Translations under genes and position numbers: made by a program | Assembly: GCF_000939975.1 (NCBI RefSeq) | Contig: NZ_LK391969.1 | Span: 1,681,953-1,745,952, forward strand | Direction: 5' to 3' | DNA from: Pseudomonas saudimassiliensis | Lineage (GTDB): Bacteria > Pseudomonadota > Gammaproteobacteria > Pseudomonadales > Pseudomonadaceae | Length of the DNA: 64,000 nt | The notes under the pieces: model-generated | Seen by the model: the letters and a program-made list of their open reading frames with translations, nothing else | The model's database searches: none | What the model was told of the DNA's origin: nothing | Shown here: positions 57,555 to 61,521 of the stretch, piece by piece | Numbering within the stretch: position 1 is the first letter of the stretch | Layout: each line of letters starts with the position of its first letter

Positions 57555-59105
57555 TTACTCGCGCAGGAAAATCTCAATGCTGCCCTGCTTGCGAGGCTCA
57601 AAGACGCACCTAGCCATGTATCCGATCTCTGTACCAAAAACGTTCTTGGCATCGAAGTTCAAGAGCACCTCGACGTTACCGGTGGTCACGGCGGTCGATG
57701 CACTGGTACCTGTAAAGCTGTGGAAGTTAACCGAACTCGGGATGGTCGCACTCTGTTTCGTCATAGTCCGACACGCAACGACGGCCTTGCCTTCGTCCCA
57801 AGCGTTTTCTGCCTGCGTGCGCACCTCCGCGCCGCTCTTAAGTTCAGCTTCGGTGAGGTAGATTCGGCTCTCGTTGGCGCAGTCAATGAAGAACTTGAGC
57901 GATTGCAGCGAGCTTTCATCGCTGAGCTGGACATTTTCGACGTAATCGCACTTGCCGCTGTCGATTGCGCGCTCAGCCGCTGTACGGCGGAAGTTCTCGA
58001 TCTCCGCTAGTCGACTGCGATATTTGATTGTAAGTGTCGGATATTGCGCCGGTGTGTACTCGTCGATTGCGTAATCCCGGATGCGAGTGTTGTAGTTTTC
58101 CTGACGATCCCGCTCGGCCTTAACTGCGGCTTCCCTGGCTTCGAAAGCTTCTTTCTTCAGTATGTATTCAGTCTTGAGCCCGACCAGAGCAGAATCAGAG
58201 ACCGTGCTGTACTCGTCCATAATCGCTTTTGCGTCGGTGAATCGCTCTTCCTGGATGGCCCGATTCAGGCTATCGAGGACTTCTAGGCGCTTCGTCGCGA
58301 ACAAATTGGCGGCTTGAGCCTCCGACGCCAGCCGTTCCCGTTCATCATCAACGCGACGCTGCTCGGCAGTTCTCTGCCGCTCAATTGCTCGTTGCTTTTG
58401 CAGTTCGGCAAGGCGGGCTTGGCGCTCGTCTGAGATAGCCTGGGTATGCTGGTAATACGAGATGTTGGCCAGTAACACAACAACCAGAGCCGCCCAAAGT
58501 CCGAGGTTGTACCGGTTATACCACGGAGCTTTCTGCACCACCTTCTGGTGTGTCAGCGGGTTAATCACCGAACCTGCAATCAGCATCAGCAAGGCCGCGA
58601 GCCAGCCTTGGTGAATTGCGCTGAAGATCGCGACGGCGATAAATACCATCGAAAAAAACCAACGGGCCGGAACCAACAACTTTTTAGCCTCACCGGCCGA
58701 CTGCATCGCGCCGGCGGCGTACTTCTCGACAGGGAACTGACGGGGGAATATATCGTCCTCTATCAACTGGAGAAGCATGGTTGTCGCGAACCGGTGGAAA
58801 ACGGCCTCATCGGTCGGAGTCTTTATGAGGTCCTCGACCTTCGGGCGTACGATCATATAAAGGAACTTGTCGATTTCTGCTTTCCACTTTGAGTCGTCGA
58901 CAACTTGATATCCCTTGTCCTCAACTAGAAAAACAGACTTGTCTTTAAGTTCAACGAAATGCGTTTCAACGGCATCCATCACCGCCTTGCCGTAGGCGAC
59001 CCCCTTTTTCGTGATTTGCATCGCAGCCAACTGTTCACGGGTTAGCCAGAAAAGGTAAGCACCCAGCATCAACAACACCAGAGCGAGGTAGAGCTTGGGA
59101 CTCAT
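57555..59105 (-). CDS. uncharacterised coiled-coil membrane protein
   Basis: A 516-residue protein I do not recognise. Residues about 5-22 form one hydrophobic helix, and about 155-205 and 215-240 form two to three more (WFFSMVFIAVAIFSAI, LAALLMLIAGSVINPL, GLWAALVVVLLANISYY). A long charged coiled coil follows (about 245-360; DERQARLAELQKQRAIERQR), then a globular C-terminal domain with five cysteines (CDYVENVQL, FIDCANES, VVACRTMTK, ARCVFEP). AAGGAG precedes the ATG at 59105. It is divergent from another uncharacterised membrane protein. The islet looks more AT-rich than the flanks, which suggests acquisition. Confidence 0.75.
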   Translation of the reverse strand: MSPKLYLALVLLMLGAYLFWLTREQLAAMQITKKGVAYGKAVMDAVETHFVELKDKSVFLVEDKGYQVVDDSKWKAEIDKFLYMIVRPKVEDLIKTPTDEAVFHRFATTMLLQLIEDDIFPRQFPVEKYAAGAMQSAGEAKKLLVPARWFFSMVFIAVAIFSAIHQGWLAALLMLIAGSVINPLTHQKVVQKAPWYNRYNLGLWAALVVVLLANISYYQHTQAISDERQARLAELQKQRAIERQRTAEQRRVDDERERLASEAQAANLFATKRLEVLDSLNRAIQEERFTDAKAIMDEYSTVSDSALVGLKTEYILKKEAFEAREAAVKAERDRQENYNTRIRDYAIDEYTPAQYPTLTIKYRSRLAEIENFRRTAAERAIDSGKCDYVENVQLSDESSLQSLKFFIDCANESRIYLTEAELKSGAEVRTQAENAWDEGKAVVACRTMTKQSATIPSSVNFHSFTGTSASTAVTTGNVEVLLNFDAKNVFGTEIGYMARCVFEPRKQGSIEIFLRE

Positions 59106-59401
59106 GAAGAACTCCTTTTCAGAAAGATCCGTTAGGATTTTTGCATTCACATCACAGTATTCTGCCGGCATCGGAGGTTTGCCTGCAGGATTAGCTGCCG
59201 CTCTATATCGCGGAAGCGAGGGACCAAGGGCGACAGGAAACACCTTTATTCTTCCTAACCTAGGCGTCTGCCAATTGGCCGATAGCGCCTATCATCTCGG
59301 CGGTCCAGCGCACACTGGACAAGCAGACTCCTGTCGTCAGGATAGCCCAAGCAGAGTGGTTGAAGATATGCTCTGCAAACGCCAATCAGCAAGGAAGCCG
59401 T
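59106..59401. other. gap between divergent uncharacterised membrane-protein genes
   Basis: A 296-base divergent control region, visibly more AT-rich than the housekeeping part. No reading frame with coding character and no clear operator was found. Confidence 0.4.
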
Positions 59402-60460
59402 ATGCAACAGAAATGGACGGATCGCCCGCCGAGCGGGGACGGTATTGAAGTCGTGCTGGAAGCCTGGCCAGCTTTTCTCCGTGCCCATGGCTCGCTGCTT
59501 GCGAAAGCGTTGCCGCCGCTGGTTGGGTTCGGCATCTTTGTTATGTATTTCTACCGCAATCATTTCTACCCGAGCTTTGATCTCTTCCAGTTCTCGTCGC
59601 TATTGTTGGCGGCTGCGTGTATTGGATTTGCCATTGTGGGTGCGGTAATTGTTATGACAGTGCTTCCCGGCGCCGCGCTTTATCATTGGTTTCTCAATAC
59701 CAAGAAAATCAAGGACGAGCTTGTATATGCGATGCCGTACTCAGAAAATGCCCTCTCGAAAGCTGTATGGCAGTTGGTATTGCTGGTCTATTTTGCGCCG
59801 TTTACGCTGGTCGGCCTCGGCTTGGTAACGTCACTGGTCCTGGCGCCTGGGTTATATGTCCATACCGGTCTGCTATGGCCTGGTTTAATCGGTCTCGCTT
59901 TTGGCATTGCCCTGCAGATACGCTTTGATCTGCCCCGTTGGAGCTTTCTGAGTTACATCTGGACTGCGTATATTCCATTTCTTATTCTGTTTGTCCTTCT
60001 TTCCACCGTTCTACAAAGCAGCCTGCCCATTATCGAAAAGCTGGATGATGTCTGGCATTACCCCATTCTCTGGGCCATTCCGCTCGTTATCGCGGCTATG
60101 GTGACCGTTTGCGCAATGGGCCATTTTGCGGGTTGGAATGCCGCCCTGCTCTTCGGCCTCTTCTTTGGTCTTGTGGTAGCGGGCTATAGCGGTGTGCTTA
60201 CCACCGTGCCCGAGAGGGCGATCAAGGGGCTGGGTCTCGGAGCCTACGAAGCGGAAATGATTGTTCTCGACCCGGACTTTTGTAACCGCGAACTCAGTGA
60301 GCTGGGCATTGCCGAAGATTGCACGCTGCGTAATGTCCACGTGGTCTGGTCATTTGGCGATGCGATTGTGCTACGCCCTGCCCTTGATCAACCCCTGCAG
60401 GTTCAAATTCCCGCCATGTTTATTCGCTCGTTGGCACGAAAGGCTGAGGGAGATCGCTAG
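59402..60460 (+). CDS. uncharacterised multi-span membrane protein
   Basis: A 352-residue inner-membrane protein with about eight hydrophobic helices (LVGFGIFVMYFYRNHF; SLLLAAACIGFAIVGAVIVM; LVLLVYFAPFTLVGLGLVTS; LIGLAFGIALQIRF; AYIPFLILFVLLSTVL; LWAIPLVIAAMVTVCAM; LLFGLFFGLVVAGYSGVLT) and a C-terminal cytoplasmic or periplasmic tail of about 85 residues (EMIVLDPDFCNRELSELGIAEDCTL). I do not recognise the family. AAGGAAG lies before the ATG at 59402. It is head-to-head with the coiled-coil protein across 296 bases, so the pair may act together. Confidence 0.72.
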   Translation: MQQKWTDRPPSGDGIEVVLEAWPAFLRAHGSLLAKALPPLVGFGIFVMYFYRNHFYPSFDLFQFSSLLLAAACIGFAIVGAVIVMTVLPGAALYHWFLNTKKIKDELVYAMPYSENALSKAVWQLVLLVYFAPFTLVGLGLVTSLVLAPGLYVHTGLLWPGLIGLAFGIALQIRFDLPRWSFLSYIWTAYIPFLILFVLLSTVLQSSLPIIEKLDDVWHYPILWAIPLVIAAMVTVCAMGHFAGWNAALLFGLFFGLVVAGYSGVLTTVPERAIKGLGLGAYEAEMIVLDPDFCNRELSELGIAEDCTLRNVHVVWSFGDAIVLRPALDQPLQVQIPAMFIRSLARKAEGDR

Positions 60461-60493: not shown

Positions 60494-60853
60494 CTATTTT
60501 TCATATCCGTGGCCGAGCTCCGCTTCCAATCGTCTCCACTCCTCAGAAAAAGCCAGGCGTAGGTAGCTGCTTAGAATCTTATCCTTGATCGCGGCGCAGG
60601 CGCTTCTGCGTCGGCGGGCAAGTCTGTTTGCTATTTCAGCCTGCAACCACTGAGCATCGAATATGGTCCAGACCGGCGGCACCGGTGCGCGGAGGTTCGG
60701 GTAACACACCGGGGCTACTTCTTCGAAAAAGATTTCTTTGAGCAGTCGGCAATCAGCCGTACCAAGTTGCGCAGCTATGGATCGATAGTCGATCTCGGTA
60801 TCCACAAACACTCGTGACAGGACTAACCGAATCTTGGCGTGGTCTTGGTCCAC
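60494..60853 (-). CDS. DUF7079-like hypothetical protein
   Basis: A 119-residue protein with LVLSRVFVDTEIDYRSIAAQLG, IFFEEVAPVCYPNLRAPVPPVWTIFDAQWLQAEIANRL and a basic stretch RLARRRRSACAAIKDKIL, matching my recollection of DUF7079. It probably adopts a small helical fold; its function is unknown. The start is a GTG at 60853 with AGGGA upstream. It lies 43 bases after the antitoxin gene on the same strand. Confidence 0.65.
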   Translation of the reverse strand: MDQDHAKIRLVLSRVFVDTEIDYRSIAAQLGTADCRLLKEIFFEEVAPVCYPNLRAPVPPVWTIFDAQWLQAEIANRLARRRRSACAAIKDKILSSYLRLAFSEEWRRLEAELGHGYEK

Positions 60854-60896: not shown

Positions 60897-61211
60897 CTAC
60901 ACACTAGCCAGCCGATCAAACATATCAGGGTACTGCTCGACCAGCTTTATCAGCAGCGCCGCCTGGGCGTTCGGCTTGGCTTTGTCCTGTTCCCAGTTAC
61001 GCAGAGTTTCAGCACTGGTTCGTATACGCATGGCGAAGACCTTTTGTGACATCTTCATTTTCTTTCTCAACGCGACGATTTCATCAGCCGTCACCTCGGG
61101 CGCGGGTCGATTCTCGACCGTAACTTGGCGCAAGGTGATCTTACCCTCCCGCTGCGCCGCCATTTCATCGATGCCCTGCATCATCTCGTCGAACAGATTG
61201 CGCTTGCTCAT
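60897..61211 (-). CDS. HigA/NadS-type antitoxin regulator
   Basis: A 104-residue helix-turn-helix protein of the HigA/NadS antitoxin group. The N-terminal 45 residues (SKRNLFDEMMQGIDEMAAQREGK, ITLRQVTVENRPAPEVTADEI) are the toxin-facing part, and VALRKKMKMSQKVFAMRIRTSAETLRNWEQDKAKPNAQA is the DNA-binding domain. Its ATG overlaps the stop of the upstream toxin remnant (ATGA), the usual toxin-first arrangement. With the toxin damaged, it may persist as an orphan antitoxin or a plain repressor. Confidence 0.88.
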   Translation of the reverse strand: MSKRNLFDEMMQGIDEMAAQREGKITLRQVTVENRPAPEVTADEIVALRKKMKMSQKVFAMRIRTSAETLRNWEQDKAKPNAQAALLIKLVEQYPDMFDRLASV

Positions 61212-61327
61212 TTGGCACCTCGCTTCTTCAGCTCGTTAGTAATCGCCTGTTTGAGCTGCTTTTCCTCGTCAGCGGAGTCGCCCACCCTTGCAGTGAACGC
61301 TGTGGTCTCAATAAAGATTCCTTTCAT
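61208..61327 (-). pseudogene. HigB/RelE-type toxin with internal deletion
   Basis: A 39-residue open frame. Residues 1-17 (MKGIFIETTAFTARVGD) match the start of HigB/RelE-family toxins and the end (DEEKQLKQAITNELKKRGAK) matches their C-terminus. A working toxin is about 110 residues, so the ~70-residue ribonuclease core is gone, in frame. No ribosome site is obvious. Upstream in-frame codons to 61399 add nothing toxin-like. The loss leaves the antitoxin intact, probably as a disarmed system. Confidence 0.7.
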
Positions 61328-61521
61328 GAAGCGAAGTGTAGGCAGATTGCCTATGGTTTTCAAGTGTGGCTTGAGCTCGCACCTCAGGATGATCTGCACC
61401 AGTATTTGGTCAGCCGGTTCGCTCCCAGCAGGCGGCCCATCTTGGTATAGGCACTAACCTCGTTTATCGTGTCGAACTAGTAAGCCGTTTAGCATTTCCG
61501 TCCGATTCGAAGGAGACAGGC

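Follow-up and report, generated by a model that had tools for sequence, protein, structure and literature searches.

Genes at the locus

We analysed a 64,000-nucleotide stretch of Pseudomonas saudimassiliensis DNA (contig NZ_LK391969.1, positions 1,681,953 to 1,745,952; hereafter the window), in which an initial annotation had singled out two divergent genes, here named A and B, as an unrecognised pair. Gene A encodes a 516-residue protein that had been credited with membrane helices, a long coiled coil and a cysteine-containing C-terminal domain. This description held: the protein contains hydrophobic stretches, a coiled coil at approximately residues 218-340 and a C-terminal domain, the head, with Cys386, Cys409, Cys445 and Cys500. 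By sequence comparison, the head is homologous to a set of siphophage genes whose products are mostly exported and which are often linked to the tape-measure gene and often separately terminated. The start codon of A is the ATG at 59105, preceded by AAAAGGAGTTCTTC, and its stop is at 57555. The gene and its parts are as follows (TM, transmembrane helix).

Gene A, 57555-59105, minus strand: 516 residues; predicted inner-membrane protein with a coiled-coil arm and a four-cysteine head
Residues 1-145 of A, 58671-59105, minus strand: TM1 and a domain (domain 1) predicted from the charge count to be cytoplasmic
Residues 146-217 of A, 58455-58670, minus strand: three predicted helices, TM2-TM4; the loop joining TM3 to TM4 is positively charged
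Residues 218-340 of A, 58086-58454, minus strand: coiled-coil arm of ∼120 residues, predicted periplasmic; the fastest-evolving part
Residues 341-516 of A, 57558-58085, minus strand: head of two subdomains with Cys386, Cys409, Cys445 and Cys500; common to tape-measure-linked phage genes

Predicted structure of A

The hydropathy of A and B was scored over 19 residues with a threshold of 1.6. In A, two hydrophobic stretches exceeded this threshold, residues 1-23 and residues 142-185, the latter being long enough for two helices. The stretch corresponding to TM4, residues 201-219, scored 1.57 over 19 residues, just under the threshold, and 2.04 over 17 residues. In the AlphaFold2 model, the arm consists of helices 199-285 and 305-341, TM4 forming its beginning, and the head consists of two α/β subdomains. 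The predicted local distance difference test score of the head was ∼97 within the full protein and 95.5 when the head was folded alone. The loop between TM3 and TM4 contains three Lys or Arg residues and no acidic residue. Overall, the charges favour a predicted topology with domain 1 and this loop on the inner side of the membrane and with the arm and head on its outer side.

The initial annotation had assigned neither protein to a family. This stood for Pfam and NCBIfam, in which no match reached the cut-off, and for PADLOC, which gave no family for either A or B, but residues 337-514 of A matched phrog_29597 in PHROG with an E of 2e-21. A weak match to phrog_4980, annotated 'superinfection exclusion' (E 0.022), covered the TM and coil region only. 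Neither DUF4041 nor a GIY-YIG nuclease appeared in the Pfam and PADLOC match lists for A (maximum E 10). Sequence searches of the PDB with A and B yielded nothing convincing, and a Foldseek search with the head of A returned no solved structure under E 1e-3. Among the predicted viral structures of BFVD, four phage or virus proteins matched the head under 1e-3, of which three are uncharacterised and one is named a zinc-ribbon protein. The second subdomain resembled cystatin scaffolds with a Z of 7-8, a level at which a shared arrangement suffices. The rows of these fold searches mostly cover the second subdomain; in the search that gave the Z values, the sole listed row spanning the first had a root-mean-square deviation of 9.6, and a missing match there carries no weight. 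Scanning viral contigs with the whole of A and searching plasmids at the DNA level gave nothing useful. A profile of the head matched 20 of 390 genomes of the order, including its own; these matches were mostly short and weak (E 1e-4 to 1e-7) and were not used.

The head family in phages and viral contigs

Relatives of the head were found in four INPHARED phage records. In three of these, Pseudomonas phage VW-6S and Pasteurella phages Pm86 and Pmp12, the tape-measure gene follows directly after the corresponding gene; the fourth, a Helicobacter prophage, lacks this arrangement. When the head alignment was used to scan IMG/VR, 52 viral loci were obtained. Open reading frames (ORFs) neighbouring each locus were called and compared, using phmmer, with 26 reference proteins, 24 of which were supported by PHROG as tape-measure proteins (18 of 20 and 6 of 12 in two sets; in the second, the six that matched were taken as the opposite-strand neighbours, in line with the tabulation of loci). 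The immediate neighbour of the head gene was a tape-measure gene at 31 of the 52 loci. This count includes L068 despite a small predicted ORF in its 77-base gap (30 of 52 without it) and treats L030, truncated by the end of its contig, as a miss. A tape-measure gene lay 1-3 kb from the head gene in L031, L038 and L062, was weakly called in L040 and L042, and was unseen in the stretch examined at the other 16 loci. When the loci were clustered at 80% identity, adjacency was found in 18 of 32 viral clusters (P 9e-16 under an assumed chance p of 0.05, or 2 in 40 genes).

The two genes occur in four relative orientations. Most often they share a strand with the head gene upstream; in L081 the head gene is downstream. 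They are divergent at eight loci (L045, L046, L047, L049, L050, L051, L053 and L055) and convergent in L060 only. In addition, three of 12 loci from bacterial genomes (L108, L109 and L114) are adjacent to a tape-measure gene and L113 is near one.

Head genes are frequently followed by a terminator of their own. An intrinsic terminator was present within 130 bases past the head gene at 18 of 22 co-oriented loci, versus 30 of 210 other co-oriented gene pairs, the latter being drawn from 14 of the 22 loci with gaps of fewer than 40 bases scored as having no terminator (Fisher p 1e-10). With one locus per cluster, the proportion was 13/17 (p 1e-7). In L032, terminators flank the head gene on both sides.

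Export was surveyed by simple rules in 67 proteins, with L030 and L116 left out, forming 41 clusters. A lipobox was found in 13 clusters, an N-terminal signal or anchor in 19, an internal TM in six and none of these in three, such that 38 of the 41 would be exported or membrane-anchored. In L108, one of the three without a signal, a signal-like stretch appears when translation is taken from an upstream GTG start. A itself shares the exported or membrane-anchored character through its hydrophobic segments and charge pattern, one segment being borderline. Heads with two subdomains share four cysteines that are invariant or almost so, a pattern that fits a disulfide-stapled periplasmic domain. 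Some members have a single subdomain, the first in L078, L080 and L085 and the second in L072-L074, L076 and L077, and family members bear varied additional N-terminal parts. Among the latter, L024, L043, L044 and L107, from Pseudomonas and Vibrio, have an added N-terminal stretch that is SH3b-like by eye; the VW-6S protein has no Pfam match. The combination of export, tape-measure linkage and a separate terminator suggests, by analogy, superinfection-exclusion morons, which bear the same marks.

The position beside the tape-measure gene could also mean that the head gene serves the structure or assembly of the phage tail, in which case A would be a decoy that disturbs tail assembly in the manner of Tab or Tai. 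Defences that interfere with assembly have been published (PMC10884400, PMC11364771). We consider such a role improbable: it is opposed by the export or membrane signals of 38/41 clusters, by the separate terminators and opposite-strand copies, and by copies on bacterial chromosomes with no tape-measure gene in the stretch examined.

Distribution and mobility of A

Among 144 relatives, A was found in its own genome only. One of them, G005, holds a head-only gene whose product has an N-terminal signal and is 51% identical. This gene lies in an islet (L135:6164-11309) with a 560-residue protein and several small proteins of unknown kind. Matches to A in G427 and G410 were rejected as partial, over the TM and coil part; that in G136, likewise over this part, was spurious, the protein being by eye of GGDEF type. 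The rare and patchy distribution also led us to reject A as a housekeeping protein.

To extend the survey, 298 genomes of the family were searched with a plasmid relative of domain 1, and nine matched, including the genome of A. Four of these (G841, G867, G889 and G866) encode full-length orthologues of 516 residues that are 81-82% identical to A over 516 residues. A fifth, G792, carries a two-gene form encoding 138 and 402 residues that jointly span all of A. In the remaining three (L170-L172), the match was confined to the C-terminal half of P0009, the plasmid protein, and they were discarded as not being A. The region corresponding to residues 1-145 is a separate gene in G792 and in plasmids of the Pseudomonas syringae group, which have the gene order of the split form and a different C-terminus. 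With the split form in G792, comparison of the sequences relates the two by fusion or fission: either A arose by joining the genes of an operon, or the operon arose by splitting A. A Neisseria gonorrhoeae record also matches A, at 25% identity over 31% of A.

Several copies of A lie near recombination-type genes. In G841, G867 and G889, whose loci seem to be copies of a single insertion, A adjoins a DUF927 gene and a small helix-turn-helix (HTH) gene (checked with Pfam in G841). The G792 stretch contains integrase and resolvase genes, while in G866 A stands alone, flanked by what are, by eye, genes for an HrpA-like helicase and a small enzyme. In the IMG/VR contig L030/L168, a DUF927 gene adjoins a sequence whose final 69 residues are identical to the end of the G841 protein; farther along is a phage-integrase-like gene (Phage_int_M, E 2.7e-5, not reaching the Pfam cut-off). 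A compact block of A, the DUF927 gene and the small HTH gene is seen in L178:6914-11416 and L030/L168. This block could be a phage satellite or a mini-integrative element with A as cargo.

Two-gene relatives of A are present on five Pseudomonas plasmids called conjugative, and in two annotated plasmid stretches they adjoin a recombinase gene and a ParA/MipZ-type gene. These contexts would suit an entry-exclusion protein of conjugative elements. We judge this quite improbable for A: the four-cysteine head occurs in phage and IMG/VR contigs, mostly beside tail genes; the plasmid version matches the second subdomain only weakly (hhalign E 0.0029, probability 11%); and no gene in the two annotated plasmid stretches is named as a transfer gene.

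Against two orthologues, the ratio of nonsynonymous to synonymous substitution rates (dN/dS) of A was 0.17-0.18 for the whole protein; the head gave 0.09-0.10 and the arm 0.32-0.36. A is a maintained protein with its head under the most constraint. The 516-residue orthologues at this overall dN/dS, together with the orthologues of B in the family, place both ORFs beyond chance.

Gene B, its neighbourhood and the HNH relic

Upstream of A are B, on the opposite strand, and the genes that lie between it and nadE, preceded by the relic of a nuclease gene.

HNH relic, 59296-59322, minus strand: TTG start and first nine codons (LSSVRWTAE)
Gene B, 59402-60460, plus strand: 352 residues; polytopic membrane protein, not read here as a partner of A
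DUF7079 gene, 60494-60853, minus strand: E 9.6e-28
Antitoxin-type HTH gene, 60897-61211, minus strand: intact; 89% identical copy in G007
63-codon ORF, 61208-61399, minus strand: toxin-gene remnant by eye; no Pfam match

Beside B, the order is thus DUF7079, antitoxin-type HTH gene, toxin remnant, then nadE. Much of what the initial annotation had reported of this region proved sound. The DUF7079 assignment was correct, and the toxin-antitoxin pair is broken as described, with the antitoxin-type gene intact and the toxin side reduced to the 63-codon ORF. The islet is AT-richer, with GC contents of 0.539 (A) and 0.534 (B) versus 0.617 for the window; that of nadE is 0.635. The estimate of about eight helices in B is fair, given five merged hydrophobic stretches of 19, 39, 53, 33 and 53 residues. 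The 63-codon ORF resembles, by eye, the two ends of a RelE/HigB-type toxin. In G007, the copy of the antitoxin gene shares its stretch with type I restriction genes and B, and likewise has, by eye, no intact toxin gene upstream.

B is near full length in 18 of the 144 relatives, including its own genome, at 39-76% identity; the copy in G042 has an internal stop. Searches of the phage, plasmid, viral-contig and PDB collections found no match, and the single match among 274 genomes of the class was B itself. B is seen only in this bacterial family. Short partial matches in G089 and G133 (E 1e-4) were rejected.

In six of the nine other same-genus genomes with B, its divergent neighbour is an HNH nuclease gene (HNH_2). 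DNA similarity between the window and G007 extends through B and the region upstream of it as far as 59297, a point within the HNH gene of G007. From 59322 on the minus strand, the window reads TTG followed by codons for SSVRWTAE, where HNH genes read LSNVRWTAD and LSQVRWTAE; the sequences diverge thereafter, and A begins 190 bp past the relic. This relic indicates that the HNH nuclease gene facing B gave way to A: its first nine codons survive between A and B, so A replaced the body of the gene. A may use the HNH gene's promoter.

The initial annotation had placed A and B in a setting of defence or inter-bacterial conflict genes. Across 16 B loci (95 neighbour proteins), the neighbours include HNH, type I restriction, AIPR, STAND ATPase, RelA/SpoT and HD genes and a weak CHAT match, which agrees in part with that view; housekeeping genes, among them that for ribonucleotide reductase, also occur there, and these neighbours were counted without control neighbourhoods. 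In G021 and G024, nadE adjoins B; in G016 that place is taken by a type I restriction gene. In several genera (L118-L133), B often lies beside variable defence-type genes. At three loci (L130-L132), B is separated from ribonucleotide reductase genes by a single gene, which is RelA/SpoT, AIPR or, by eye, GIY-YIG-like; for the last, Pfam gives only a weak match to sigma-70 region 4. At the nadE hotspot of G024, the HNH gene facing B adjoins a gene (L121:3127-8217) for a 1696-residue protein with an nSTAND1 match.

Their divergent arrangement ∼300 bp apart suggests that A and B could be the two components of one membrane system, and both are membrane proteins and AT-richer than the window. The pairing claimed in the initial annotation nevertheless fell away. 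Each gene occurs without the other: among the 144 relatives both are present in the genome of A only, and a query for B that did match elsewhere found nothing in the six genomes carrying A, the two-gene form or the head. Moreover, the usual neighbour of B is the HNH gene, whose relic lies between the two. A joint system is very improbable, and B is a separate gene of the hotspot that is beside A by circumstance.

Proposed role of A

We propose, with a probability of about one half, that A is a mobile-element-borne envelope protein that excludes phages at genome injection, in the periplasm. In this model, A would be anchored in the inner membrane via four predicted helices with domain 1 in the cytoplasm. 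TM4 is predicted to continue into the ∼120-residue coiled coil, which would carry the disulfide-stapled head into the periplasm. There, the head would most probably engage the tape-measure protein of the incoming phage, or the host factor used by that protein, during passage across the periplasm, and this engagement would block injection of the genome. The engagement is proposed on the strength of the gene linkage and the analogy with two exclusion proteins, HK97 gp15 and Ltp.

The gene encoding HK97 gp15 is located among the tail genes. The protein itself is predicted to be in the inner membrane and blocks DNA injection (PMC10883804); its description there mentions neither a four-cysteine head nor a long coiled-coil arm like those of A. 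Ltp of phage TP-J34 and its relatives is a lipoprotein, argued to be a moron, whose target is the tape-measure protein (PMC3952083, PMC10883804). As described there, and unlike A, Ltp has Gram-positive hosts and two repeat regions. SNIPE, a defence protein held in the inner membrane, encounters the tape-measure protein during injection (PMC13190303). By the same account it comprises a cytoplasmic DUF4041 and a GIY-YIG nuclease, whereas the head of A is predicted to be periplasmic and no nuclease family was listed for A. Finally, in two prophages of Acinetobacter baumannii 17978, a 'putative lipoprotein' (A1S_3759 and A1S_3701) directly precedes the tape-measure gene and is listed among phage hypothetical proteins (PMC3978071); its likeness to the head genes is one of position.

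Several observations weigh against phage exclusion by A. No tape-measure gene is present at its own locus, the ORFs adjoining it not being tail genes. An adjacent tape-measure gene is also missing at 21 of the 52 viral loci, including all five with the second subdomain only, and at nine of the 12 bacterial-genome loci, eight of which have none in the examined stretch. L078 and L080 are tape-measure-linked and have no export signal. Terminators were not found at seven opposite-strand loci, where none is required to part the head gene from a co-oriented neighbour, and promoter-like sites at L032 and L051 were, in simple scans, no commoner than in shuffled sequences. The membrane part of A is of low confidence in the AlphaFold2 model and TM4 is borderline by hydropathy, so the topology depends on the charges and the cysteine-rich head. 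Lastly, the top solved-structure match of the head was YpmB, in an entry with the cell-wall protein MreC (E 0.0076).

This last match, together with one to a YpmB-MreC model (E 0.019), raises the alternative that the head is a module of lysogenic conversion or of envelope homeostasis, concerned with the cell wall or stress, and that A is a mobile envelope fitness gene. The part of the head family that lies away from tape-measure genes and the varied N-terminal parts of its members are consistent with such a module. For a general envelope gene, a place beside the tape-measure gene in 18 of 32 viral clusters and in several orientations would be unexpected, and we regard this alternative as unlikely.

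Phage exclusion by A would belong to a known kind, that of exclusion proteins acting at injection; what would be new is the long-armed, mobile build in two-gene or fused form. We know of no precedent for a long-armed anchor bearing an exclusion head, and a literature search, mostly without subscription papers, found no description of the head family or of A. Tentatively, A may be a portable host-side sensor-blocker of injection, its cytoplasmic domain possibly signalling contact inward; mobile elements would trade it as cargo for defence, and phages would carry the bare head against rivals whose tape-measure proteins are similar.

The genera whose contigs or genomes contained the head domain include Pseudomonas, Acinetobacter, Pasteurella, Psychrobacter and Brucella. 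If the proposal is correct, a widespread, unannotated domain would act as an exclusion head connected with the tape-measure protein, and many hypothetical genes adjoining tape-measure genes would gain a role. It would also provide a direct route to testing how siphophages cross the periplasm. Exclusion heads would then be common to phages and to the mobile elements of their hosts, in the latter on a long-armed anchor.

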